This document shows, in pieces, positions 21,796 through 62,059 of a stretch of DNA of 64,000 nt. The stretch lies in contig PKEB01000024.1 in assembly GCA_002863125.1 (NCBI GenBank), positions 1 to 64,000 of the forward strand, read 5' to 3'. A program made the translations under genes and the position numbers. Numbering within the stretch: the stretch's first letter is position 1; each line of letters opens with the position of its first letter. Below the pieces are notes generated by a model. That model was given only the letters and a program-made list of their open reading frames with translations. It was not told the DNA's origin and ran no database searches. This stretch comes from Flavobacteriales bacterium. Lineage in GTDB: Bacteria; Bacteroidota; Bacteroidia; Flavobacteriales_D; Sanyastnellaceae.

Positions 21796-22227
21796 TTACT
21801 GGCGCAGCCAGGTCTGCGTGCGGAACAAGATCCAGATGTACCCACGGACCTTTAATTCGTCCATGTTGTCCTCTTCGAACCACATTTCGCAATCGTAGAT
21901 TTTGCCGTTCTTCGGGTCACAGATGGTCCCATCTCCCCATTCCAATGTAGACAAAGGCACCATGTCTCGAACGATTTCCATGCCCAAGGCAGGCTGGTCT
22001 TTTCGGTCGTCCTCGCATTGATCGCAAATGGGGTTCTGGTCCTCTTCTGGCAACCGGAACAACTCAATGACTTGGCCGTAAATCTTCCCATACCGCTCGG
22101 TGACTTCCACCACGCTCTTGATGCGGCCGGTTTCGTCGTCAATGGTTTTCCATTTGCCCAAAACGGGGTTCTGGGCGAAGGCAGCAACGGCAAAAAGGGT
22201 CAGGGCGAGGGTCAATAAGTGTTTCAT
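21796..22227 (-). CDS. DUF2147 domain protein, exported
   Basis: A 143-residue protein with a signal peptide (to about residue 19, AFAQ) and the DUF2147 pattern: GKWKTIDDETGRIKSVVEV, YGKIYGQVIEL, CDQCEDDRK, and PKNGKIYDCEMW. DUF2147 proteins are small exported beta-rich proteins of unknown function, common in Bacteroidota. It overlaps the yihY-like gene by 4 bases, so translation is coupled in a nadC-yihY-DUF2147 run. It converges with the flippase gene only 9 bases apart, with no clear terminator hairpin. Confidence 0.88.
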   Translation of the reverse strand: MKHLLTLALTLFAVAAFAQNPVLGKWKTIDDETGRIKSVVEVTERYGKIYGQVIELFRLPEEDQNPICDQCEDDRKDQPALGMEIVRDMVPLSTLEWGDGTICDPKNGKIYDCEMWFEEDNMDELKVRGYIWILFRTQTWLRQ

Positions 22228-23195
22228 GATGAAGAAGTTTCCAGTTGTTTTTCAGCATCCGTCCGCGCACGGTTGATGGCTGCGTTGAGTTCGAAGCCCA
22301 ATAATAAAATGGAACTGATGGAATTCAACCACAAAAGGGTAATCAATAATGTTCCAAGTGAACCGTACAGGGTATTGTACGAGGCAAACTGGTCAATGAA
22401 CCACGAAAATGTGAAGGTCAAAAGGACAAAAAACGCCGTCGTACCCGTGGCCCCAATCGACCACCATTGCCAAGGATGCGGTGAGCGGTCACCCACGTTG
22501 TACAGAATGGTAACGGCCACATAGATCAACCCGAAGGACAGCGCCCACCGAGCTCCTGTTACCAACGGGATGTTGATCCCCTCCAGCCACCCCCTCGTTT
22601 CGGCCCAGTTCAGCACGTCGCCCGCAAACCCGATCATGAACACAGCGAGCACCAACAGGACCGACAGCACCAACAAAAGGCCAATGGACAGCAAGCGGAA
22701 TACCATCCAGTTCTGTTGCGGGCCTGCGGAGTGCGCACTCTGTCCGAATCCAAGCAAAATAGCATTCACACTGTTCGAAGCGTAATACAGCAACAGCACA
22801 ACACCAACGGACAGGAGCGTTCCTTGCCGTTGGCCGATGAGGTCGGAAACGGTCGATTCAAAGAGTTCGATGGCCTGCTTGGGAAAAAACTGCTCCAGGC
22901 TGAGCAGGACTTCTTCCGTCTCCAAAGGGGTATAGGGGATGATACTCAAAAGCAAAATCATCGCCGGAAAGAAGGCCACGAACAAGCGAAAGCTGATGGC
23001 CGCCGCCCGGGTTGAAACCGAGCCGTTGACCAAACCGAGAAAGAAGAACCGGCCCACGTCGTAGACGTTCATGGACTTGTCTTTCCAAGGACGCACACCC
23101 CGCAGCACGCGGCGCAGCCGGTCGAACACCTTGTTCTGTTGGACCCACCGGAAAAACGGACGGTCTGGGACCATGGGCGGTTCGAGTTCAGCCAT
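22224..23195 (-). CDS. YihY/virulence factor BrkB family membrane protein
   Basis: A 323-residue inner-membrane protein with about six membrane segments. The cytoplasmic N-terminus is followed by SVSTRAAAISFRLFVAFFPAMILLLSIIPYTP, the family signature region (ATAISYYALLALFP in others), and later NAILLGFGQSA, then segments such as LLVLSVLLVLAVFMIGFAGDV. The old RNase BN assignment of this family is discredited and its function is unknown. The ATG at 23195 overlaps the end of nadC by 8 bases. Confidence 0.88.
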   Translation of the reverse strand: MAELEPPMVPDRPFFRWVQQNKVFDRLRRVLRGVRPWKDKSMNVYDVGRFFFLGLVNGSVSTRAAAISFRLFVAFFPAMILLLSIIPYTPLETEEVLLSLEQFFPKQAIELFESTVSDLIGQRQGTLLSVGVVLLLYYASNSVNAILLGFGQSAHSAGPQQNWMVFRLLSIGLLLVLSVLLVLAVFMIGFAGDVLNWAETRGWLEGINIPLVTGARWALSFGLIYVAVTILYNVGDRSPHPWQWWSIGATGTTAFFVLLTFTFSWFIDQFASYNTLYGSLGTLLITLLWLNSISSILLLGFELNAAINRARTDAEKQLETSSS

Positions 23196-24075
23196 TGAAA
23201 TACGTTGCCGATTTCAAACTAAAATCCATGCCCTTCACGCTGTGCGTGATCCACCCCATGCTCACGTAATCCACGCCGGCTTCTGCATAAGACCGGGCGT
23301 TGTCCGGGGTGATCCCGCCTGACGCCTCCAACGGGATGCTACCGCCCCATTGTTTCACCATGGCCGCCGCCTCGGCCGGGGTGTGGTTGTCCAGCAATAG
23401 CCGGTCCACCAGCGGCGAACCGTCGGGTTTTTGCCACTTGGTGCGCGCCGCCATGGCAGCGGCCGCTTCATCGGCATCGCGCACTTCCACCACGACCGGT
23501 ACGTTGGATTGCTCAGCCTTCATGTACGCGGCGACGTTCTCCAAGGCCTGGGCCATGGAGCCCGCGTAATCCACGTGGTTGTCTTTGACCAATATCATGT
23601 CGTACAAGCCCATGCGGTGGTTGGTTCCCCCGCCCAAGCGTACGGCCATCTTCTCAAATTCCCGCAGGCCAGGCGTAGTCTTACGGGTGTCAAGCACGGC
23701 GCATTTGGTGCCGGCGAACGAAGCCATGATATCGGCTGTGCGGGAGGCTATCCCGCTCATGCGTTGAATGAAGTTCAGCGCCAACCGCTCCCCGATCAGA
23801 ATGCTCTTGGCAGCGCCCGCAATCCGGAGGACACGCTGGCCGGCCGTCACGGTATCGCCATCGGCAGCGAGCAATTCACAGGTCAACGACGCGTCGACCA
23901 CCCCAAAGACAAACTCGGCCACCTCCAAACCGGCGACTACGCCGTCTTCTTTTGCCATGATAAACCCCTCTTGCAACAAGCCCTCCGGCAACGAAGACTC
24001 CGATGTACAATCCCCCGTTCCCAGGTCTTCTTCCAAGGCGAAGCGGATCAGTCGCTCCATCGATTGTGAAACCAT
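23188..24075 (-). CDS. nadC: Nicotinate-nucleotide pyrophosphorylase (carboxylating)
   Basis: A 295-residue quinolinate phosphoribosyltransferase, which makes nicotinate mononucleotide in de novo NAD synthesis. Landmarks are ALEEDLGTGDCTSES, ERLALNFIQRMSGIAS, DTRKTTPGLREFEKMAVRLGGGTNHRMGLYDMILVKDNH, and the C-terminal EASGGITPDNARSYAEAGVDYVSMGWITHSV. The frame is open for another 109 codons upstream, but that part lies antisense to rlmH and is not NadC-like. The ATG at 24075 is 4 bases downstream of a -7-like element, so it is the likely start. It is divergent from rlmH across 27 bases. Confidence 0.95.
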   Translation of the reverse strand: MVSQSMERLIRFALEEDLGTGDCTSESSLPEGLLQEGFIMAKEDGVVAGLEVAEFVFGVVDASLTCELLAADGDTVTAGQRVLRIAGAAKSILIGERLALNFIQRMSGIASRTADIMASFAGTKCAVLDTRKTTPGLREFEKMAVRLGGGTNHRMGLYDMILVKDNHVDYAGSMAQALENVAAYMKAEQSNVPVVVEVRDADEAAAAMAARTKWQKPDGSPLVDRLLLDNHTPAEAAAMVKQWGGSIPLEASGGITPDNARSYAEAGVDYVSMGWITHSVKGMDFSLKSATYFNG

Positions 24076-24079
24076 GCGG

Positions 24080-24087
24080 CGAAGATA
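24080..24087 (-). promoter_or_regulatory. -7-like element TATCTTCG for nadC
   Basis: A one-mismatch version of TAnnTTTG read on the minus strand, 4 bases before the nadC ATG. The same variant occurs at 41866-41873 with nearly the same distance to a start codon. Confidence 0.45.
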
Positions 24088-24090
24088 GAA

Positions 24091-24098
24091 TACCTTTG
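24091..24098 (+). promoter_or_regulatory. -7 promoter element TACCTTTG for rlmH
   Basis: An exact TAnnTTTG match ending 4 bases before the GTG start of rlmH. Transcription would begin at or next to the start codon, so the mRNA would be leaderless. Confidence 0.55.
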
Positions 24099-24102
24099 CT
24101 TC

Positions 24103-24579
24103 GTGCAAATCACGCTTTTGGCCATCGGTAAAACACAGTCCAGCTGGATCGCTGAGGGCACACGGATATACGTGGACCGCATGCGCCACTACGGAAGGTT
24201 CGAGTTCATCGAAACCCCCGATGCCAAGCTGAAGCAGAGCAAAAAAGACCCCGAAGCCGTCAAAGAGGCGGAAGCCACCATCCTCGACAAATTCATCGGC
24301 GGAGTGGACCACCTCATTCTTTTGGACGAAAAGGGGAAAGCCATGGGGTCGCTGGCGTTCTCGAAGCACCTCCAAAACCTGCAGAACCGCGGGTTGCGCC
24401 ACGTGATGTTTGTGATTGGGGGACCGTATGGATTTGCCCCGCGCATCCGCTCAAAGGCCCATGCGTTCATGAGCCTCGGCCCGATGACGTTTTCGCACCA
24501 GATGATCCGGCCGTTTGCCGCGGAACAAATTTACCGTGCGCACACCATCCTCAAAGGCGAACCTTACCACCACGAATAA
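24103..24579 (+). CDS. rlmH: 23S rRNA (pseudouridine1915-N3)-methyltransferase RlmH
   Basis: A 158-residue SPOUT methyltransferase that modifies pseudouridine 1915 in helix 69 of 23S rRNA. The sequence matches along its full length: MQITLLAIGKTQ, ILLDEKGKAMGSLAFSKHL, the SAM-binding knot FVIGGPYGFAP, and the C-terminal FSHQMIRPFAAEQIYRAHTILKGEPYHHE. It starts with GTG; no ribosome binding site precedes it and a -7 element lies 4 bases upstream. It is followed by a bidirectional terminator shared with atpC. Confidence 0.96.
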   Translation: MQITLLAIGKTQSSWIAEGTRIYVDRMRHYGRFEFIETPDAKLKQSKKDPEAVKEAEATILDKFIGGVDHLILLDEKGKAMGSLAFSKHLQNLQNRGLRHVMFVIGGPYGFAPRIRSKAHAFMSLGPMTFSHQMIRPFAAEQIYRAHTILKGEPYHHE

Positions 24580-24876: not shown

Positions 24877-26433
<1,557 letters not shown>

Positions 26434-26442
26434 TTACCAACC

Positions 26443-26450
26443 TATCTTTG
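26443..26450 (+). promoter_or_regulatory. -7 promoter element TATCTTTG for ribF
   Basis: An exact TAnnTTTG match 5 bases before the GTG start of ribF, again implying a leaderless mRNA. It is back-to-back with the atpD promoter, 26 bases apart. Confidence 0.55.
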
Positions 26451-26455
26451 CAAAA

Positions 26456-27415
26456 GTGAAAGTCCATTTCAACGCACGCGATTTTTCGACGGAAGTCCCG
26501 GTGATATTGACCATTGGAACCTTTGATGGGGTCCATGTAGGGCACCGCGCAGTACTTGATTTGTTGAAAACTCGTGCAGCCGAATTGAACGGCGAATCGG
26601 TGCTGCTGACCTTCCACCCCCACCCCCGAACGGTCCTTCACCCCGAGCACCACCAATTGCAATTGCTCAACACCATCGAGGAACGCAAGGCATTGCTCGA
26701 GCAAGCGGGGCTCGACCACCTGATCATTCACCCCTTTACGGAGGAGCTCTCACGCATGTCACCGCTGGAATACGTGCGGGAGCTTTTTGCGGAAGGCATC
26801 CGGCCTTCCGTCGTCATCGTTGGGTACGACCACCGGTTTGGCCGCAACCGAGAAGGGTCGTTTGAGAGTTTGACGAACCTGGGCACGGTGTTCGGCTTCG
26901 AGGTCGAAGAGTTGCCCGCGCACACCGTGGAGAACACCCGGGTGAGCTCCACCAAAGTCCGAGAAGCCATCGCCGCCGGTGATGTTGCCCGTGCTCGGCA
27001 GTGGCTGGGCCATCCTTATCCGTTCAGCGGCCGTGTCGTCCGCGGAGAACAGCTGGGCCGCAAACTCGGTTTCCCCACGGCCAACCTCGAATGCGAGGAA
27101 CCGCTGAAGCGCTTGCCTGGACGCGGGGTCTACGCTGTGTGGGCGCGCATCGCCGGGGCGGGCGACTGGCAGCCGGCCATGGTCAACATGGGCACCCGAC
27201 CAACCATACAGGACGATGTCATCACCGAAACCATGGAGGTGCACCTGCTGGAAGGCGGCCGCCAGTGTTACGACGAGACCATGGCACTCCTGTTCATGGC
27301 CCGCTTGCGAGATGAAATGATGTTCGAAGGCTTGAAGGCACTCCAAGACCAGCTGCAACAGGATGCCCAAAAGGCGCGTTCTATCTTAGCGACTGAGCCT
27401 GTTCCGGTACCATGA
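26456..27415 (+). CDS. ribF: Bifunctional riboflavin kinase/FMN adenylyltransferase
   Basis: A 319-residue enzyme converting riboflavin to FMN and then FAD. The N-terminal adenylyltransferase domain has LTIGTFDGVHVGH (residues 19-30) and VIVGYDHRFGRNREG. SSTKVREAI ends that domain. The kinase domain begins near residue 190 with PFSGRVVRGEQLGRKLGFPTANL and continues with RGVYAVW and MVNMGTRPT. It starts with GTG just after a -7 element. The LRR gene overlaps its stop by an ATGA junction, so ribF heads an operon with the LRR, pnuC and NadR-like genes. Confidence 0.95.
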   Translation: MKVHFNARDFSTEVPVILTIGTFDGVHVGHRAVLDLLKTRAAELNGESVLLTFHPHPRTVLHPEHHQLQLLNTIEERKALLEQAGLDHLIIHPFTEELSRMSPLEYVRELFAEGIRPSVVIVGYDHRFGRNREGSFESLTNLGTVFGFEVEELPAHTVENTRVSSTKVREAIAAGDVARARQWLGHPYPFSGRVVRGEQLGRKLGFPTANLECEEPLKRLPGRGVYAVWARIAGAGDWQPAMVNMGTRPTIQDDVITETMEVHLLEGGRQCYDETMALLFMARLRDEMMFEGLKALQDQLQQDAQKARSILATEPVPVP

Positions 27416-30694: not shown

Positions 30695-33600
30695 TTATTG
30701 ATTCAAGTTGAAGCGCAAAGCTACTCCAGAACGGATATTCGACGTAGCAAATGACGTCGAGATGTACGGGTTCGTAATCTGGTGGTCGTAGAACGCCCGC
30801 ATCGTCAATTTGTCCGACACTTCGAGGTCTGCCGACATCTTGATCGACACGAGTTTTTGACCCGCCGTCACCTGGTTCTGTCTCTCCTCCATCTTGCGAA
30901 TGATGGTGCGGTTATCCCGCACATTGACGTCCGCGCGCAGCACAAGGTCCGTCTCCTTCAGCATCTTGACAGGCAGCTTGCCGTAGGTCTTGATGAACGG
31001 ATTGGGCACGTCCTTGAATTTGTATCCAAATCCAATGACCAATCCCTCGCTCTTCGTTTCCGTGATCTGGTAATTGGTCAACCCGAAGGCCACATTGCGG
31101 TCCCGCTTGAGTTCCACTTTGATTTGCGGCTCGTTTTCCCCTTCGGTCTTGATGGTCATGTCCACCCCAATCAGCGGCGACAACTGTTCGCTCAAGCTCA
31201 CGACGTTGAACTGGCGCTCAGAAATGTAGTTGCCGAATTCGCTTTGGTCAATGGCTGTCGGCAGCCCGTTTGCGTTCTCCGTGTAGTTGAGGTTGGTCAC
31301 ATAGTTCGTGGTGAGGGTCGAACGGTAGCTGTGGTTCAAATTGAAGCGCTTGAAGTACTGCTTGAAGAACTCGTTTTTGGTCAAACCATCGTAGCTCACC
31401 CGCCAGTTCGGCGCGACCGGTGTGTTAAATACGTCGAGCGGTACCTCCTTCGGATCGATGCCCAAATAAGCCGCTACAAATGCCGGAATGGTCACGTCTT
31501 GGCTGGTGCCGCCGAAGCCCTCGTAATAGCCCGTGTTCTCTGGCTCGTCCAACTGATACGTCTCCGCATTCAAACGTTCCGAAACCAGGATTCGGTGGGT
31601 CTTGATGAAGTCGTCCCACAGTTCCGAATTGAACTCATCCTCCACATCGTCTTCAACGAATGCGGTATTCCAGCTCATCACGGTCGCAGAAAACTGCCCG
31701 GTCTCATTGGGCGAATCGTACACGAAATCGTTCAACACTTCATCGTACCGGAAGAAACTCGTATAGTTCTTGCTGATGTTGCGGTTGGCGGTCAATTCGA
31801 TTTTTAAGTGCTTGATGGGCTCCAAATTGGCGCGCGCATTGAACTGCTCTTGGTACGTCTGGTTGTACTGTTGGTTCTGCAGGGGCAGTTCGACCAACCA
31901 ACCGTTTTGTGCCGCTTCGGTGGCAAAATCACGCACCTGTACGCCTTGCCAGTTAGTGTTCTGGTGGCCCAGTACAAACAGCGCTCCTGGCGCAAGCAAC
32001 TGTTCATCCATGCCAACAAAGCGGGCGCTCCGATCGTAGCCCGGCAGGAGCATGCCTTCGTTTCGAGAGAACGTTCCCGATACGTTTTGTACGCTCGCTA
32101 TCAAACGAACCAGGGTAGCGAGCGGGTTGATTTTTAGCTTGATTTTTTCCTCCTCTTCTGCATTGCCAAATCCATCCCGGTCCTCATTCCGAATGTCATT
32201 GCGCGTGGGTGCGCGGCGCGGTGGATTCAACAGATCCTTCACCCCAGGAATCTTCTTGTAGAGGTTGGCAAAATTAGCCTGCGCATTCAGGCTCAAGTTC
32301 CGGGAATTCTGGATGGTCGCACCCAAGCTATCCTGCGAGAACGGCGCTCGGTCCCAGCGGTAAGATCCTTGGTAGCGAACGTCACTCGAGATGAAGTTGA
32401 CCAGGGGCAATTTATCGAAGGGCAACTTGTACGTACCCGTGACGTTGTGGTTGTAGGTGGTGATTTCACCTGCGTTTTGCAAGTTGATCAAAACCGAATC
32501 CTTGTACGCCTGGAACGCATCGGCATCGTCCCGGTTGATTTCCCCCGCCGGCTCACCTACGAGTGCCTGGGCCTGGCCGTTGTAATCAAATTTCAGGGCC
32601 TTGGTCAAATCGTACTTCAGCGCATAGTTGCGCGACCACTGCCACGTCTTCATGACCTGGGTATTGATCAGCAGATCCGTCTCGATCCCCAGCAATTCCT
32701 CCGTGTTATTGCGTACACGGCTGGTTTCGTAGATGCGGTTCATCTGCGTTCCGACCGTGAACTGCTTCGGGAACAGGTAAAAATTGAAGTCCGATAGCCA
32801 CTTCAACGCGTCGACCTTGCGGATGAAACCAATCTTTTTGAATGGCATGAAGTTCTTGGGCGAATGCGAGAAGTTGTAATTCAAGCCGCCTCGGAATTCC
32901 CGGTTGATCTGGTACTCGGTATTCACATCGCGGTTGAAGGCTTCGATGTAGCTGAAATTCGCTGAGAAGTTCCCCGGATCGAAAAGCTTCAAAAGGCCGA
33001 ATCCCGAGCCGCCGCCGCCGCGAGTTGAGCCGCCACCCCGGGCAGAACCACCACCCCGGGCAGAACCGCCGCCGCGCGCAGATCCCATATCGACATTCGC
33101 GTCCAAGGCTCCACTGTCCTTCCCTGCGTCCTTGCCGCCTTTGCCGTTACCTCGTCGCCCTCCAGCATCGGCGCCGCCGCGATCGCGGTTGCGGTCGCGT
33201 GAACCGCCCGAGCCGAGCTGTGGGTCGATTTTGATGTTCGAGAAGTTGATCGACTTCAATTGATTGACCGTCTGGGCATTGTTCTGCCGCTCTTCGGAGA
33301 GCCCCTGTTGTTCAGCCATTTCAATGTCGGGAGACAACGGGTCGAATTGGGGCGTCGACACTTCCTTGGAATAGCCGAGGTACATCGGCAGGGTCACCCC
33401 CAGTTTCTTGGGCAACAACTTGCCCAGTTGCAAGGTTCCTGATGCGTCAATGGCTTGAATGGTCTCCCGCTGGCGTTCTTGAATGCGCTGCTCCAATCCG
33501 CCAAACCCGGGCGTGGACATGTTCGCAGCGACGCTGACGTTTCCGAGGTCGGCCAGCTTCGCATTCATCTGTGCCGTGACTGCCCAGCCGCCTTTTTGGT

Positions 33601-36600
33601 TGAAGTCGGCGAGGCGCATTTCGTTCACCCACACCACACTGCACTTGTCCAAGCCATCGTCGTCAGAATCGAAAACGTTGTCGTCCTTGTCCGGGTTGCG
33701 CACGCCCACCATGACCATGACCACATTGGCCAAGTTGGGGTTGCCCTTCACAGCGAGGCGCGCATTGTATTCGGAGTCCAACCCTTCATACTCTTCGAAC
33801 AGCGGGTAGCCCGCAGGCCGCTCGATTTTAAGGTTCTGCAGCTTGCGAAACTCGATGTCGATGTTATTCTCAGCTGGCCAAATGAGGTCTTCATCCCCGG
33901 TGTTCCAGGGCGTGACCTTCATAGGAATTTCGTATTCGTAGTAGTTGTTTTCGAAGTCGTTGCCCAAGCGAATGAAGCACGTCAGGTCATCGTCGTTGAG
34001 CGGCGTTCCATCCGGTCCCGCCTCCGCGTGCACATACATCCGCAGGCGTTTGTACATCCGCATGTCAAAATTGATGTTGCGGTACGCTCCACGGGCATCC
34101 CCATCTTTCAATCCGCACACAGCCATCTCAAGGGATTGCTCATTCAACCGGCGCTGGTTCGCCGTTCCCACGTCGATTTCACGAATGATGCCCGGAGGGG
34201 TCACGTACGGTACCGGCTCGCGGTTACCGTTTTCTTCGATGTTCACGGCACTGATGGCAAACGAAGTCGAGGACGGATCATCCGGCTCCACCTCCTGCGG
34301 GCCGGCCAACGATTCGAGGTACCGGCGCCATTCGCCACGGATCAATTCCAGGCGCGCAAAACGCAACGTCACCGGCTCCGACCACCCCTTCATGAACATG
34401 CGGATGAACCGGATCGATCGGAAATCCGTGATGCCGCCCACGCGGTTGTCGAATTCCCGAACCGGAATCTTGAACTGGTACCAGCGGATGGTGCGGTCTT
34501 GGTCGTCCGCGGTTGTTACGACCTGCTCAAACGTATCCGTGATGTAGTTGCTGCCAATGTTGTATTCCCCCAGGTCTTGTGGACGCAAGGAGACCTTATA
34601 CTGGAAGTAACTCTCGATGGTCGAGAGGGTGATGTCCTGATTGATGTCCTCCGTGTTGGGAATGGTCGTGGAGGTGATGGGATACCCGTTTGGAGAGCCC
34701 GTGTTCGAGTTGTTCTCGTACCCGTTGAACCGCTCGTACCGCTGCAGGATGGTCTCTTCGTTGGCCTGCGCCTCAGGATCACGGAAGTACCGGAAATTAT
34801 CCGCAGACGGGTCGCTCACAATGTCCGCATAGGCGTCGGGCGTCACCCAATCTGCAATTTCCGAAAGCCATTCAGAGAAGAACCCTTGCTCCTCGGCATC
34901 AGGCAGTCCATCGAGGCCGACGTCTTGCAGTTCATAATCGCCAGAAGTGTTGTCAAATGCGTTGACTACGTTGAAGGTCGTGGGATCCGGATACACCCCC
35001 CAGATACCTTCCAGCGTGGGCAGGTCTGGGTTGTTGGCCGACGGCAGTCCGTTCTCGTACGACAGCTGGCTATCGTTCAAAACGTCCTCCGAAACGTTTC
35101 CAAGGTTGATGTAGAAGTCGCCTCCGGTGAGGTTTTCCGAATCCTCATTGAATGGATCCATCAACCAGAACTGGAGGTATTCGATGTTGGCCATCTCGAA
35201 GTCCGTGGTCGTCAAGGCCCGCTGGATGCCACCCCAACGGCTGCTCGGATCAGCCAACGCCCCTTCCACCGTCAAACCAGCGGAAATGCCGCCTGCACCC
35301 TCGGGGACCTCGTAGTTGTACTGCCCCCGCTCTTCAGGCTGGAAGGTCAAATCGAGGGTGGGAATGTTGGGTGGCGTGCCGGTGGGCAATTCCCGGTTGG
35401 GGAACACCTCGCCTTCTAGGACTTCCCGCGTACGGTGGTCGCTCTTGATCTCGGCACTGACCTGTCCGTCCTGCAAACCCGATCCCCGGAAAAACTGCGG
35501 ATCCACTGTGTACCAGCTCAATGCCGCCCGGTTGTAGTTATAAATCAGGCTGTCCTCCAAGTTGCCCTCTGGGAAGAGGTTGGGCTGGAGTTTCGGTGTC
35601 GAGGCCAAGAACCACCGGTTCACCGACCGGATGTCAATGGCGGATTGGCTGCCTTCGAAATCATCGATGTACGCGTTTCCATCCTGACCGATGGCGCGGC
35701 TGTGGCCCGGGATTAGATACGCCGCTTCCGCAGCGATGTCGATGCTGGAAGCTGCACTGGTTTCGTAAAACGGCAGGGCGTCCACCAAATCAGTCAGAAA
35801 TTGACTGTTTGACTGGTAGCTGAAGTCAGCGCCGACGATGGAGTTGTTGACCGGTTCGTTTCCGATGTTGACCTTTTGGGTCAGCGGACGCTCGCGGAGG
35901 TTGAGCAGCGTAGCGCCCATGTTGAAGCGGTCCCCAATGGCATAGTCGAACCGCGTCCCCATCATGGTTTTGGTCTGGATGCTGAAGAGCGAATTGCTCT
36001 CGAGCGAGACCTTGATGTTGCGGCCTGATTCGAGGAGTCCGTCATTGATGATACGCACCCGGCCCAATTGGTAATCGACCGTATAGTCCTGGTTCTCGAT
36101 CAAACGAACCCCGCCGGCCGTGACCGTGACCGATCCTTCTGGGATGTTCATAGCCTGCAGGGCTATCTCACTGCTTGTCTGGCTTTGGAACTCCCCTTTG
36201 ATGCTGAAGCGGTTGAGCGATGGAATTTGCTGCGCCGCCGTTTTGGTGCTGTCGTAGAGCGGCTGGAATACGATGCTTTCGATCAGGTTGGCAGCGAGGT
36301 CCGGATCTTCCACACGCTCCTGAATCTCCTCGGCCAAGTTGGAACCAAAAGGTTCAGCTGACGGGAAAAAGATTCGGCCGTTCTGACTGTGGATGGTTCC
36401 GCCCATGGTGGCGGCGTTATCGACGAAGTCAAAGACCCCATCGGGCTGCGTCATTCCGTTGATGTCCAGCCGGTCCATCCCCAGCAATTGAATGAGCAAG
36501 GTCCCGTCGAGCGGGTTGCGTGGGATGTAATTCAAATCGACCCCGGTCGCCGGGTCGTTGTACCAAATGTTGAGGCGGAAGTTCTCTTCACTCAATCCAA

Positions 36601-38182
36601 ACGCCTGCATAGAGTAGACGTTCTTCATCATGGTTTTCCAGAGCGGCGCCTGGTCACCGTTGCTCAGGCGAAGCTGGGTAATGCTGGACTTCAGCATTTT
36701 CAACATGAGTGCATCCGGGGCGGTATAGCCATCTTGCGAAATGGTCCCCACCTGGTAGGTCTCTCCGCCTAGGGTGTATTCGTAGGCGACCGCCAGCACC
36801 TCCGCGTTATTCAAGGCCTGCCGCAACGAGATGAAACCCAAGCGAGCGTTGTAGGTAAATTCCGTCGGCGCCAGCTTTCGGGCATTACCGACGCGCTCGT
36901 AGTGAATGCCTTGGGTCAAGCCCAAATTCATGCTGGCGATGGCGCTGTTGGCGCCTGTAAATCCGAGCACGTTGGGATTACTAACCATCATGTCAAACAG
37001 CTGGTTGTTCGCGTTCGTGGGGTTCCGTTGCAGCGTGACGGAATCTCCGACCAAGGTTTCAACCGGCAAATTGGATGAAACGTAGTCCGGGTGTTCCCCG
37101 AGGTCGGTAAATCCAATGACGTTTCGGACGTCCTGGGTGTTGGCCTGCATATTGACAACCCACACCTCGATGCGGGTGATGTTCACGCCCGAGTTGGGCA
37201 CCGGCAAGCTCTGCATCGCCACGTCGTATTGATCGAGGAAGTACTGCGAGAGGAAATAGTGTCGGTTGGCTTCGTAATCGTCAGCGCGGATATTGAATTC
37301 CTGCGTTTGGGCGCCCCCTTCCACTTCAATCTCCCTGCGCTCGCCCTTTTGCTGGGAGAACACCGTCGTGTTGTACAGGCGCCCCCACTGGGTTTCCAAC
37401 TTCACACCGAACAAACTTTGGCTGCCGGTAATCAAGGTCCCGGGCAAGGGCATGGAGATGTGTCCTGCCTCAAAGTTTTTCAAGATGTCGTCCTCTTCGC
37501 CCTGGAAACCGATGTTCATCTGGTTTTCAAAATCGAAGAGGGCTTCGGTGTTGTAGTTGGTCCCAAGGTCAATCTTGTCGCCAATCTTTCCGCCGATATT
37601 CAACTGGATGCGCTGGTCAAAGTCAAACGTCGTGATGCGGCGTTGGCGTTCAGGGATTCGGGGGTTCTCGGTGTCGGAGATGTTGATGCCAAAGGTGAGT
37701 TCCGCCGAGCCCTGCGGCTTGATTTCGATTTCGTTGCTTCCGAAAATCGTCTCAAACAGCTCGCTGTCCACCGTCAGTTTCGGAGCGAAAGCGCGTTCCG
37801 CTTCGTCATCTTCGGCTTGGAGGTCTGTCCAATATTCAGTTAGGTTGCCCGTGATATCGTAGTCGAGGTATTCGTCGAGCGTCAGGTAGGTCGAAGGCCG
37901 GTACAGCAGGGTGTCGCCAATGCGTTGCTGGATGCTGTACAACCCGGTGGTTTCGTCGAAAACAATCTCATAGTTGAAGTTCTCCGGCCATGCAAAATCG
38001 AAGCCTGCTGGGCTTTCCGTCGGATTGAACTGGTCCTCCCCTCCGAACGGGAAAGGCAAGATGATGGGCAGCGAGTCGTTCGCCGCATCCTCCGTGGCTT
38101 GAGCCCACACGCCTGAAAACAAAGAAAACCCCAGGACCAGGGCAAAAATCTGCGCAAAACGAGGCCGCTCGATCTTCATCAC
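30695..38182 (-). CDS. sprA: T9SS outer-membrane translocon SprA/Sov
   Basis: A 2495-residue outer-membrane protein, the giant 36-strand barrel through which T9SS cargo crosses the outer membrane (SprA in Flavobacterium, Sov in Porphyromonas). It has a signal peptide ending near VWAQ. Family landmarks include GNLTEYWTDLQ, FGSNEIEIKPQGSAELTFGINISDTENP, ITTFDFDQRIQLNIGGKIGDKIDLGTNYNTEA, GHSRAIGQDGNAYIDDFEGSQSAIDI and, at the C-terminus, DKLTMRAFYDHQITNP. Residues about 1660-1725 are a Gly/Arg/Asp-rich low-complexity insert ending in tandem SARGGG units. The start overlaps ruvA by 4 bases. All T9SS cargo encoded in this window depends on this protein. Confidence 0.97.
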   Translation of the reverse strand: MMKIERPRFAQIFALVLGFSLFSGVWAQATEDAANDSLPIILPFPFGGEDQFNPTESPAGFDFAWPENFNYEIVFDETTGLYSIQQRIGDTLLYRPSTYLTLDEYLDYDITGNLTEYWTDLQAEDDEAERAFAPKLTVDSELFETIFGSNEIEIKPQGSAELTFGINISDTENPRIPERQRRITTFDFDQRIQLNIGGKIGDKIDLGTNYNTEALFDFENQMNIGFQGEEDDILKNFEAGHISMPLPGTLITGSQSLFGVKLETQWGRLYNTTVFSQQKGERREIEVEGGAQTQEFNIRADDYEANRHYFLSQYFLDQYDVAMQSLPVPNSGVNITRIEVWVVNMQANTQDVRNVIGFTDLGEHPDYVSSNLPVETLVGDSVTLQRNPTNANNQLFDMMVSNPNVLGFTGANSAIASMNLGLTQGIHYERVGNARKLAPTEFTYNARLGFISLRQALNNAEVLAVAYEYTLGGETYQVGTISQDGYTAPDALMLKMLKSSITQLRLSNGDQAPLWKTMMKNVYSMQAFGLSEENFRLNIWYNDPATGVDLNYIPRNPLDGTLLIQLLGMDRLDINGMTQPDGVFDFVDNAATMGGTIHSQNGRIFFPSAEPFGSNLAEEIQERVEDPDLAANLIESIVFQPLYDSTKTAAQQIPSLNRFSIKGEFQSQTSSEIALQAMNIPEGSVTVTAGGVRLIENQDYTVDYQLGRVRIINDGLLESGRNIKVSLESNSLFSIQTKTMMGTRFDYAIGDRFNMGATLLNLRERPLTQKVNIGNEPVNNSIVGADFSYQSNSQFLTDLVDALPFYETSAASSIDIAAEAAYLIPGHSRAIGQDGNAYIDDFEGSQSAIDIRSVNRWFLASTPKLQPNLFPEGNLEDSLIYNYNRAALSWYTVDPQFFRGSGLQDGQVSAEIKSDHRTREVLEGEVFPNRELPTGTPPNIPTLDLTFQPEERGQYNYEVPEGAGGISAGLTVEGALADPSSRWGGIQRALTTTDFEMANIEYLQFWLMDPFNEDSENLTGGDFYINLGNVSEDVLNDSQLSYENGLPSANNPDLPTLEGIWGVYPDPTTFNVVNAFDNTSGDYELQDVGLDGLPDAEEQGFFSEWLSEIADWVTPDAYADIVSDPSADNFRYFRDPEAQANEETILQRYERFNGYENNSNTGSPNGYPITSTTIPNTEDINQDITLSTIESYFQYKVSLRPQDLGEYNIGSNYITDTFEQVVTTADDQDRTIRWYQFKIPVREFDNRVGGITDFRSIRFIRMFMKGWSEPVTLRFARLELIRGEWRRYLESLAGPQEVEPDDPSSTSFAISAVNIEENGNREPVPYVTPPGIIREIDVGTANQRRLNEQSLEMAVCGLKDGDARGAYRNINFDMRMYKRLRMYVHAEAGPDGTPLNDDDLTCFIRLGNDFENNYYEYEIPMKVTPWNTGDEDLIWPAENNIDIEFRKLQNLKIERPAGYPLFEEYEGLDSEYNARLAVKGNPNLANVVMVMVGVRNPDKDDNVFDSDDDGLDKCSVVWVNEMRLADFNQKGGWAVTAQMNAKLADLGNVSVAANMSTPGFGGLEQRIQERQRETIQAIDASGTLQLGKLLPKKLGVTLPMYLGYSKEVSTPQFDPLSPDIEMAEQQGLSEERQNNAQTVNQLKSINFSNIKIDPQLGSGGSRDRNRDRGGADAGGRRGNGKGGKDAGKDSGALDANVDMGSARGGGSARGGGSARGGGSTRGGGGSGFGLLKLFDPGNFSANFSYIEAFNRDVNTEYQINREFRGGLNYNFSHSPKNFMPFKKIGFIRKVDALKWLSDFNFYLFPKQFTVGTQMNRIYETSRVRNNTEELLGIETDLLINTQVMKTWQWSRNYALKYDLTKALKFDYNGQAQALVGEPAGEINRDDADAFQAYKDSVLINLQNAGEITTYNHNVTGTYKLPFDKLPLVNFISSDVRYQGSYRWDRAPFSQDSLGATIQNSRNLSLNAQANFANLYKKIPGVKDLLNPPRRAPTRNDIRNEDRDGFGNAEEEEKIKLKINPLATLVRLIASVQNVSGTFSRNEGMLLPGYDRSARFVGMDEQLLAPGALFVLGHQNTNWQGVQVRDFATEAAQNGWLVELPLQNQQYNQTYQEQFNARANLEPIKHLKIELTANRNISKNYTSFFRYDEVLNDFVYDSPNETGQFSATVMSWNTAFVEDDVEDEFNSELWDDFIKTHRILVSERLNAETYQLDEPENTGYYEGFGGTSQDVTIPAFVAAYLGIDPKEVPLDVFNTPVAPNWRVSYDGLTKNEFFKQYFKRFNLNHSYRSTLTTNYVTNLNYTENANGLPTAIDQSEFGNYISERQFNVVSLSEQLSPLIGVDMTIKTEGENEPQIKVELKRDRNVAFGLTNYQITETKSEGLVIGFGYKFKDVPNPFIKTYGKLPVKMLKETDLVLRADVNVRDNRTIIRKMEERQNQVTAGQKLVSIKMSADLEVSDKLTMRAFYDHQITNPYISTSFATSNIRSGVALRFNLNQ
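33007..33083 (-). repeat. Tandem 18-bp repeats coding SARGGG within sprA
   Basis: Four tandem six-residue units (SARGGG three times, then STRGGG) at about residues 1699-1725 of SprA, preceded by an Arg/Asp/Gly/Lys-rich stretch. At the DNA level the units are about 18 bp and GC-rich. They look like a slippage-prone repeat in an otherwise conserved protein. Confidence 0.8.
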
Positions 38183-60956: not shown

Positions 60957-61350
60957 CGCACGGGCAATCAGTGGCCTCTCGCACGACCGCCATTCCGACG
61001 GAGGCGCTGTGCTCTGAAAAGCACACCGTGAGCTTCTCAAACGGGCAATCTGCTTGCATCTCAAACAAGTAACACGGGCGCTCTTCCCGTGCAGCGCTTT
61101 CTGACCAATTGATGTCCGCCGCCAGCAGCCATTGCATCACTTGGTTTCCATCCGCACGGGTGGGGCCTTCGCATTCCAAAAGGCACTGCAGGGGCGCGTC
61201 CAGTTGAATTCCCTCCAGCTGCATGCGGGCTTTGATGCGTTTGCCGGGCAACCAATCGTTGCAGCTGCGGCCACTGAAAAAGAGTGCGCTCAAGATGACG
61301 CCGATGATGACGCCGATGCCGTAGCGCAGGAATCGTTGACGAAAATTCAC
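60943..61350 (-). CDS. Small membrane-anchored DUF4258-like protein
   Basis: A 135-residue protein with one N-terminal membrane segment (YGIGVIIGVILSALFFSG) and a C-terminal domain with several Cys (QCLLECEGPTRADG, SESAAREERPCYLFEM, DCPFEKLTVCF). The layout resembles short Bacteroidota proteins annotated DUF4258, of unknown function. I chose the GTG at 61350 rather than the upstream start at 61368 because an exact -7 element (61355-61362) lies inside that extension. Its 3' end overlaps the dehydrogenase gene by 14 bases tail to tail. Confidence 0.7.
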   Translation of the reverse strand: MNFRQRFLRYGIGVIIGVILSALFFSGRSCNDWLPGKRIKARMQLEGIQLDAPLQCLLECEGPTRADGNQVMQWLLAADINWSESAAREERPCYLFEMQADCPFEKLTVCFSEHSASVGMAVVREATDCPCATDE

Positions 61351-61354
61351 AACC

Positions 61355-61362
61355 CAAAAGTA
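61355..61362 (-). promoter_or_regulatory. -7 promoter element TACTTTTG for the DUF4258-like gene
   Basis: An exact TAnnTTTG match on the minus strand, 4 bases before the GTG at 61350. It implies a leaderless mRNA and decides the start codon. Confidence 0.55.
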
Positions 61363-61393
61363 CGACACGCCGCAACGGAGGCGGCTTGCGTTG

Positions 61394-61401
61394 TAATTTT
61401 A
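61394..61401 (+). promoter_or_regulatory. Possible -7 element TAATTTTA for the ABC operon
   Basis: One mismatch from TAnnTTTG, 7 bases before the ATG at 61409, back-to-back with the DUF4258-like gene's promoter. Confidence 0.4.
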
Positions 61402-61408
61402 GGCTCAG

Positions 61409-62059
61409 ATGATCCGCACCAGCAACCTCGCATTTCAATACCTGAAGGACAGCCCGCTGCTGACCTTCCCAGATGTCGAGTGCCCCGCGCAAGGGCAACT
61501 GCTCCTGCTCGGTGCGTCTGGGTGCGGAAAGACCACCCTACTGCATTTGCTCTGTGGCATGCTGCAACCTACCCAAGGCACGGTGAATATCAACGGCCGG
61601 GCGCTGCATCAAATGACCGAGTCGGAGCGCGACGCTTTTCGCGGCCAAAACATCGGCATCGTTTTTCAAAAATCGCACTTCCTCCAAAGTCTCACGGTGC
61701 TGGAAAACCTCGCCATGCCCGCGTTCCTCAGCGGAGCGGCGTTCGACAAACGCGAAGGCCTCCAACTCTTGGAACAGCTCGGCATTGCACACAAGGCCAG
61801 CAGCCGTCCACGCGACTTGAGCGTCGGTGAGCAGCAACGCGCCGGAATCGCCCGGGCATTGATTCACCGGCCGGCCCTCGTGCTTGCGGATGAGCCGACC
61901 AGCGCCCTCGACGATGGCAGTACGGCGGCCGTAATGGACCTCTTGGAAACGCAAGCAACAGCGGCTGGAGCAACCTTGGTTATTGTCACCCACGACCAGC
62001 GGCTCAAGGACCGCTTTGGCAACCGCCTCGATCTCACCGCTCAACCCCAGTCAGCATGA
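61409..62059 (+). CDS. LolD/MacB-type ABC transporter ATPase
   Basis: A 216-residue ATPase. Walker A is GASGCGKTT (35-43), the Q-loop region is GIVFQKSHFL, the signature is LSVGEQQR (137-144, with Val in place of the common Gly), and Walker B is LVLADEPTSALDD (157-169). It is of the MacB/LolD class that pairs with FtsX-like permeases to drive periplasmic work rather than classical transport through the membrane. It overlaps the permease by 4 bases and so forms a complex with it. Confidence 0.93.
   Translation: MIRTSNLAFQYLKDSPLLTFPDVECPAQGQLLLLGASGCGKTTLLHLLCGMLQPTQGTVNINGRALHQMTESERDAFRGQNIGIVFQKSHFLQSLTVLENLAMPAFLSGAAFDKREGLQLLEQLGIAHKASSRPRDLSVGEQQRAGIARALIHRPALVLADEPTSALDDGSTAAVMDLLETQATAAGATLVIVTHDQRLKDRFGNRLDLTAQPQSA

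Follow-up and report, generated by a model that had tools for sequence, protein, structure and literature searches.

In a Flavobacteriales genome, the divergent genes nadC and rlmH are separated by a spacer of 27 bp, and we believe that this spacer carries two independent promoters of the primary sigma factor placed back to back, each directing transcription from the first base of the adjoining start codon. Both mRNAs would then be leaderless, and the tight arrangement would be a chance meeting of two copies of a layout that is standard in the family. We assign to this reading a probability of roughly 0.8; it is drawn from sequence comparisons within the genome and among its relatives.

The source genome (2.27 Mb, 35 contigs, G+C 56%) has as its nearest named relatives uncultured, mostly marine Flavobacteriales metagenome assemblies; the window, i.e., the whole stretch of DNA that was analysed, comprises 64,000 nucleotides of it. 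The gene nadC (quinolinate phosphoribosyltransferase) occupies positions 23188–24075 of the minus strand and starts with the ATG at 24075; its product has Pfam matches to the QRPTase N domain (E 4e-19) and the QRPTase C domain (E 8e-48), and the codon-1 ATG is found in 26 of 26 relatives. The gene rlmH, coding for a SPOUT-family 23S rRNA methyltransferase (Pfam SPOUT_MTase, E 1.5e-47), occupies 24103–24579 of the plus strand; its GTG start is unambiguous and matches position 1 of the Pfam family. On the minus strand the 3' end of nadC is overlapped by 8 bp by a gene for a BrkB/YihY-family membrane protein (22224–23195), which is in turn overlapped by 4 bp by a DUF2147 gene (21796–22227); both probably share the nadC transcript. 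All coordinates of the preliminary description (the two start codons and the spacer, 24076–24102) are correct, and so is its statement that each of two octamers ends 4 bases from its start codon with 3 bases between them. Read from nadC to rlmH, the spacer consists of four bases, CCGC (24076–24079, minus strand), the nadC octamer TATCTTCG (24080–24087, minus strand), the linker GAA (24088–24090), the rlmH octamer TACCTTTG (24091–24098, plus strand) and four further bases, CTTC (24099–24102, plus strand), delimited by the positions and by comparison with relatives. An Rfam search of the region found no RNA element.

The sequence TAnnTTTG is the -7 element of the primary sigma factor of Bacteroidota; in F. 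johnsoniae it covers -12 to -5, with G avoided at positions -10 and -9 (PMC6847099). If this geometry, from T at -12 to G at -5, is carried over from F. johnsoniae to the two genes, a gap of 4 bases makes the start codon begin at +1 in both cases, i.e., with the A of ATG at 24075 (minus strand) for nadC and with the G of GTG at 24103 (plus strand) for rlmH. The rlmH octamer is an exact match to TAHHTTTG; the nadC octamer ends in TTCG and is thereby one substitution from the textbook TTTG.

The relation between octamer and start codon was counted in 1.207 Mb of the source genome, on both strands and without the use of a gene caller, as the distance from TAHHTTTG or TAHHTTCG to an ATG or GTG that begins a reading frame of 80 codons or more. 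At gap 4 such a codon follows 31 of the 195 TAHHTTTG sites and 27 of the 166 TAHHTTCG sites, the means for other gaps being 2.8 and 2.6; TTCG is about as common as TTTG in this genome and equally tied to the 4-base gap. For both forms taken together (TAHHTTYG), a start codon at gap 4 is about 11 times commoner than at other distances. The reverse-complement and scrambled control motifs gave flat distributions with no peak at gap 4, and TTG starts, which would place a pyrimidine at +1, are nearly absent at this gap. The 361 TAHHTTYG sites correspond to about 1.5e-4 per position, and simple arithmetic from this density gives about 2e-8 per divergent pair for two octamers at two fixed positions; the back-to-back octamers at nadC/rlmH exceed chance. 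The sharpness of the gap-4 peak, together with the gap being kept at nadC and rlmH in relatives, supports the earlier proposals that both octamers are -7 elements and that both mRNAs start at the start codon. Judging from this sequence evidence, transcription of nadC and of rlmH very probably begins at the initial base of the respective start codon.

A rough background subtraction, which yields an estimate and not a measured value, suggests that about a third to half of the recognisable promoters in the source genome are leaderless or nearly so. In the literature, the leaderless share is given as 5.5% in F. psychrophilum (PMC9723704); about 3.7% of the 5' UTRs are shorter than 10 nt in B. thetaiotaomicron (PMC7366714), and in F. 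johnsoniae a leader of at most 10 nt is found for 13% and a longer one for 87% (PMC6847099). A C at -1 precedes 81% of the leaderless genes versus 51% of the starts without the motif; considered as evidence for an initiator, it gives weak support, being common before all starts in the source genome.

The -33 regions had also been described as falling inside the coding sequence of the opposite gene. Geometry alone makes this so, and we attach little weight to it, since the base frequencies upstream of 58 leaderless promoters of the source genome exhibit no TTG peak around -33. A TTTG does occur 18 bp upstream of the nadC octamer, within the codon-2 CAA of rlmH, and is absent from some members of the clade; a TTG found 24 bp upstream of the rlmH octamer is not kept in all. 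The motif, its placement relative to +1 and the avoidance of G at -10 and -9 are those of the sigma-ABfr promoters of Bacteroidota. Unlike the published promoters of this type, those of the source genome use TTCG as often as TTTG, have no -33 motif detectable in the 58 leaderless cases, and place the -7 element on the start codon far oftener than in the published species. Similarly, the TA-led leaderless genes of bacteria are marked by a -10-like element about 10–12 bp before the start codon (Zheng 2011, PMC3160421); that element is TANNNT, whereas nadC and rlmH have the Bacteroidota -7 octamer.

The divergent order of the two genes is kept in each of the 20 congeners for which rlmH was matched, and in several other genera. 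At nadC, 24 of 26 relatives have the octamer TATCTTCG and the other 2 have TATATTCG, always exactly 4 bases from the ATG; the four bases in between vary freely, their number being conserved and their sequence not. The rlmH octamer, which is TAnCTTTG-like, is TACCTTTG or TAACTTTG with a few variants, and stands at gap 4 in nearly all relatives; across the genus this holds whether the spacer is 27, 50–52 or 70 bp. The spacer measures 27 bp in ten species; the remaining congeners have 50–52 or 70 bp, and other genera 39–62 bp. In a tree of nadC and rlmH the ten species group together as a single clade (support 100/99), which lies among lineages with longer spacers. The proposed check of conservation in relatives has a divided outcome: the nadC octamer is kept at gap 4 in 26 of 26 and the rlmH octamer in nearly all, but the 27-bp spacer is kept in a single clade of ten species, with 39–70 bp elsewhere.

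Within this clade, identity amounts to a mean of 41% (minimum 27%) at the fourfold-degenerate sites of nadC and rlmH, to 99% in the 19-bp core CGAAGATAGAATACCTTTG and to 65% in the eight outer bases of the spacer. The GAA linker is invariant across the ten species, the synonymous sites being near saturation. This is the sole hint of a joint function, and it is a point that speaks against independent promoters, as two wholly independent octamers do not explain an invariant linker.

The independence of the two promoters can be judged from more distant genomes, in which nadC and rlmH are apart or have a small gene between them. The small gene, of about 130–160 aa and on the nadC strand, was seen at L027, L029, L031, L114, L115, L117, L120 and L122–L124, and is absent wherever nadC and rlmH adjoin. 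Where the two genes do not adjoin, a -7 element still frequently stands 4–6 bases ahead of the first ATG of nadC (L027, L029, L031, L115, L117, L123, L124), and one at gap 4 is frequent for rlmH (L117, L122, L133). As both promoters are kept without adjacency, the leaderless layout belongs to each gene and not to the pairing; and as the octamer gaps are kept while the spacer length varies, the promoter geometry is held per gene, the overlap being a late contraction.

Other divergent pairs of the source genome likewise have two starts that are leaderless or close to it, their spacers measuring 32, 35, 35, 35, 44, 45, 51 and 58 bp; five of them are annotated and involve unrelated genes (thioesterase/unknown, aminopeptidase P/RidA-like, M1 peptidase/FKBP, radical SAM/DUF3109 and MazG/PagL). 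The nadC/rlmH pair is the tightest doubly leaderless divergent pair seen in this genome. Motif pairs within 60 bp of each other are divergent in 14 cases versus convergent in 5 (about 1.7 expected, by arithmetic). A preferred length of the divergent linker was looked for genome-wide and none was seen, the linkers being scattered from 3 to 54.

Some further observations concern the window itself. A second divergent pair lies at 61350–61409 with a spacer of 58 bp; on its minus side TACTTTTG is found 4 bases before a GTG, and on its plus side TAATTTTA is found 7 bases before the ATG of a gene for an ABC transporter ATPase. At 26373–26456, atpD (minus strand) and ribF (plus strand, GTG) diverge across 82 bp, with TATCTTTG 5 bases before the GTG of ribF and the opposite octamer about 35 bp before atpD. 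A reading frame of 2494 aa at 30695–38179 has a SprA domain (Pfam SprA_N, E 4e-183) and corresponds to a component of type IX secretion and gliding.

We presume that each of the two promoters would consist of little beyond a TAnnTTYG -7 element of the sigma-ABfr type, and that both mRNAs, being leaderless, would be translated from the 5' end. The divergent gene order would have brought two standard leaderless starts together by chance, and in the ancestor of the ten-species clade the spacer would have shrunk from about 40–70 bp to 27 bp, which is close to the minimum for two non-overlapping copies (4+8+8+4 = 24 bp). For steric reasons one polymerase at a time would be expected on the site, probably with a small regulatory effect at ordinary housekeeping activity.

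Expression had been suggested to be mutually exclusive, and it is tempting to go further and to propose a conserved back-to-back device for this, i.e., a regulatory bidirectional promoter with overlapping polymerase sites in which activation of one gene represses the other. With -7 elements 3 bp apart the polymerase footprints should indeed overlap, the 19-bp core including GAA has stayed unchanged across the ten species despite near-saturation of their synonymous sites, and the bidirectional promoters of E. coli compete when one direction is strongly activated (PMC12825309). The comparison does not support such a device: the tight spacing is confined to one clade, and the same promoters are 39–70 bp apart in the rest of the genus and in other genera. 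None of the five E. coli bidirectional promoters tested was active enough at its basal level for competition to occur, which set in only under strong activation (PMC12825309), and at nadC/rlmH we found neither a regulator site nor a functional reason to oppose these housekeeping genes. Since the spacing is limited to one clade, a regulator site was not identified and basal activity in E. coli proceeds without competition, we hold a switch to be improbable. The likeness to the E. coli type (Warman 2026, PMC12825309) is that the starts would be too close for two polymerases, which at nadC/rlmH is expected from the geometry. That type has one shared pseudo-symmetric -10 element with starts typically 10, 18 or 23 bp apart, whereas nadC/rlmH has two separate -7 elements joined by a 3-bp linker, with predicted starts 28 bp apart; a further difference is that both of its transcripts are predicted to begin at start codons.

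Another explanation leaves rlmH as the sole leaderless gene: nadC would be transcribed from 24075 but translated from its second Met (ATG at 24060), with a leader of 15 nt. A short leader would be usual in Bacteroidota, and all of the 26 relatives have an in-frame Met as codon 6, in each case exactly 15 nt downstream of the first ATG; the codon-1 ATG, however, is equally invariant and falls on the predicted +1. Codons 2–5 are moreover conserved at the protein level (hydrophobic at 2, Ser/Thr/Asn at 3, the second codon position being the least variable), and representatives of other families that lack Met6 (L029, L031) still have a -7 element right before the first ATG. We therefore consider this start unlikely, though slightly less so than the switch. 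Finally, the octamers could be translation or regulator motifs, the real promoters lying upstream inside the opposite gene and giving mRNAs with leaders, as most mRNAs of Flavobacterium and Bacteroides have (PMC6847099, PMC9723704, PMC7366714). Such promoters would have to sit in the protein-coding sequence of the opposite gene, and the octamer is a known -7 element that peaks at the single distance placing +1 on the start codon; this seems to us very unlikely, the least credible of the alternatives. Two independent promoters, each with its +1 on the start codon, remain the reading that we prefer.

The class to which the pair belongs was followed across Bacteroidota. The source genome has 108 copies of the pattern TAHHTTYGNNNNATG and 15 of its reversed form; the excess is large in the genus and in most genera of the family, reaching 118 to 5, and in most other families of the order the ratio is near 1–3 fold. 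These fold ratios and those that follow are indicative only, as the reversed-pattern control varies with base composition. Relative to the mean of distances 10–39, gap 4 is enriched about 8-fold in the source genome; most members of the family have values of about 2–14 fold, and the remainder of the order about 1–3 fold. For the phylum 148 genomes were compared, the majority of which lie near 1–2 fold. A separate occurrence was seen in a family of another class of Bacteroidota (f33; G158, G162, G170, G193, G201), with an excess at gap 4 before ATG of up to about 9 fold, e.g., 46 versus 5. The leaderless gene layout is common in the source family, and nadC/rlmH is a tight but ordinary case of it.

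A broader statement may be ventured, namely that leaderless transcription is a main mode of gene start in this marine Flavobacteriales family, far above the 4–13% of the Bacteroidota models; that promoters consisting of nothing but the -7 element can stand back to back within less than 30 bp; and that the 19-bp unit of the 27-bp clade, linker included, has been selected as one joint promoter. Taken as a whole this is a tentative proposal that we rather doubt.

The pair per se is ordinary, and the family-wide leaderless background is the more useful result. A family of Bacteroidota with a strong and countable leaderless signature would be a natural test case for translation initiation by non-Shine-Dalgarno ribosomes, and the -7 octamer at gap 4 can serve to assign start codons in these genomes from the sequence alone. 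The contraction to 27 bp is in this respect a natural experiment; it suggests that a promoter can work with no more than the -7 element.
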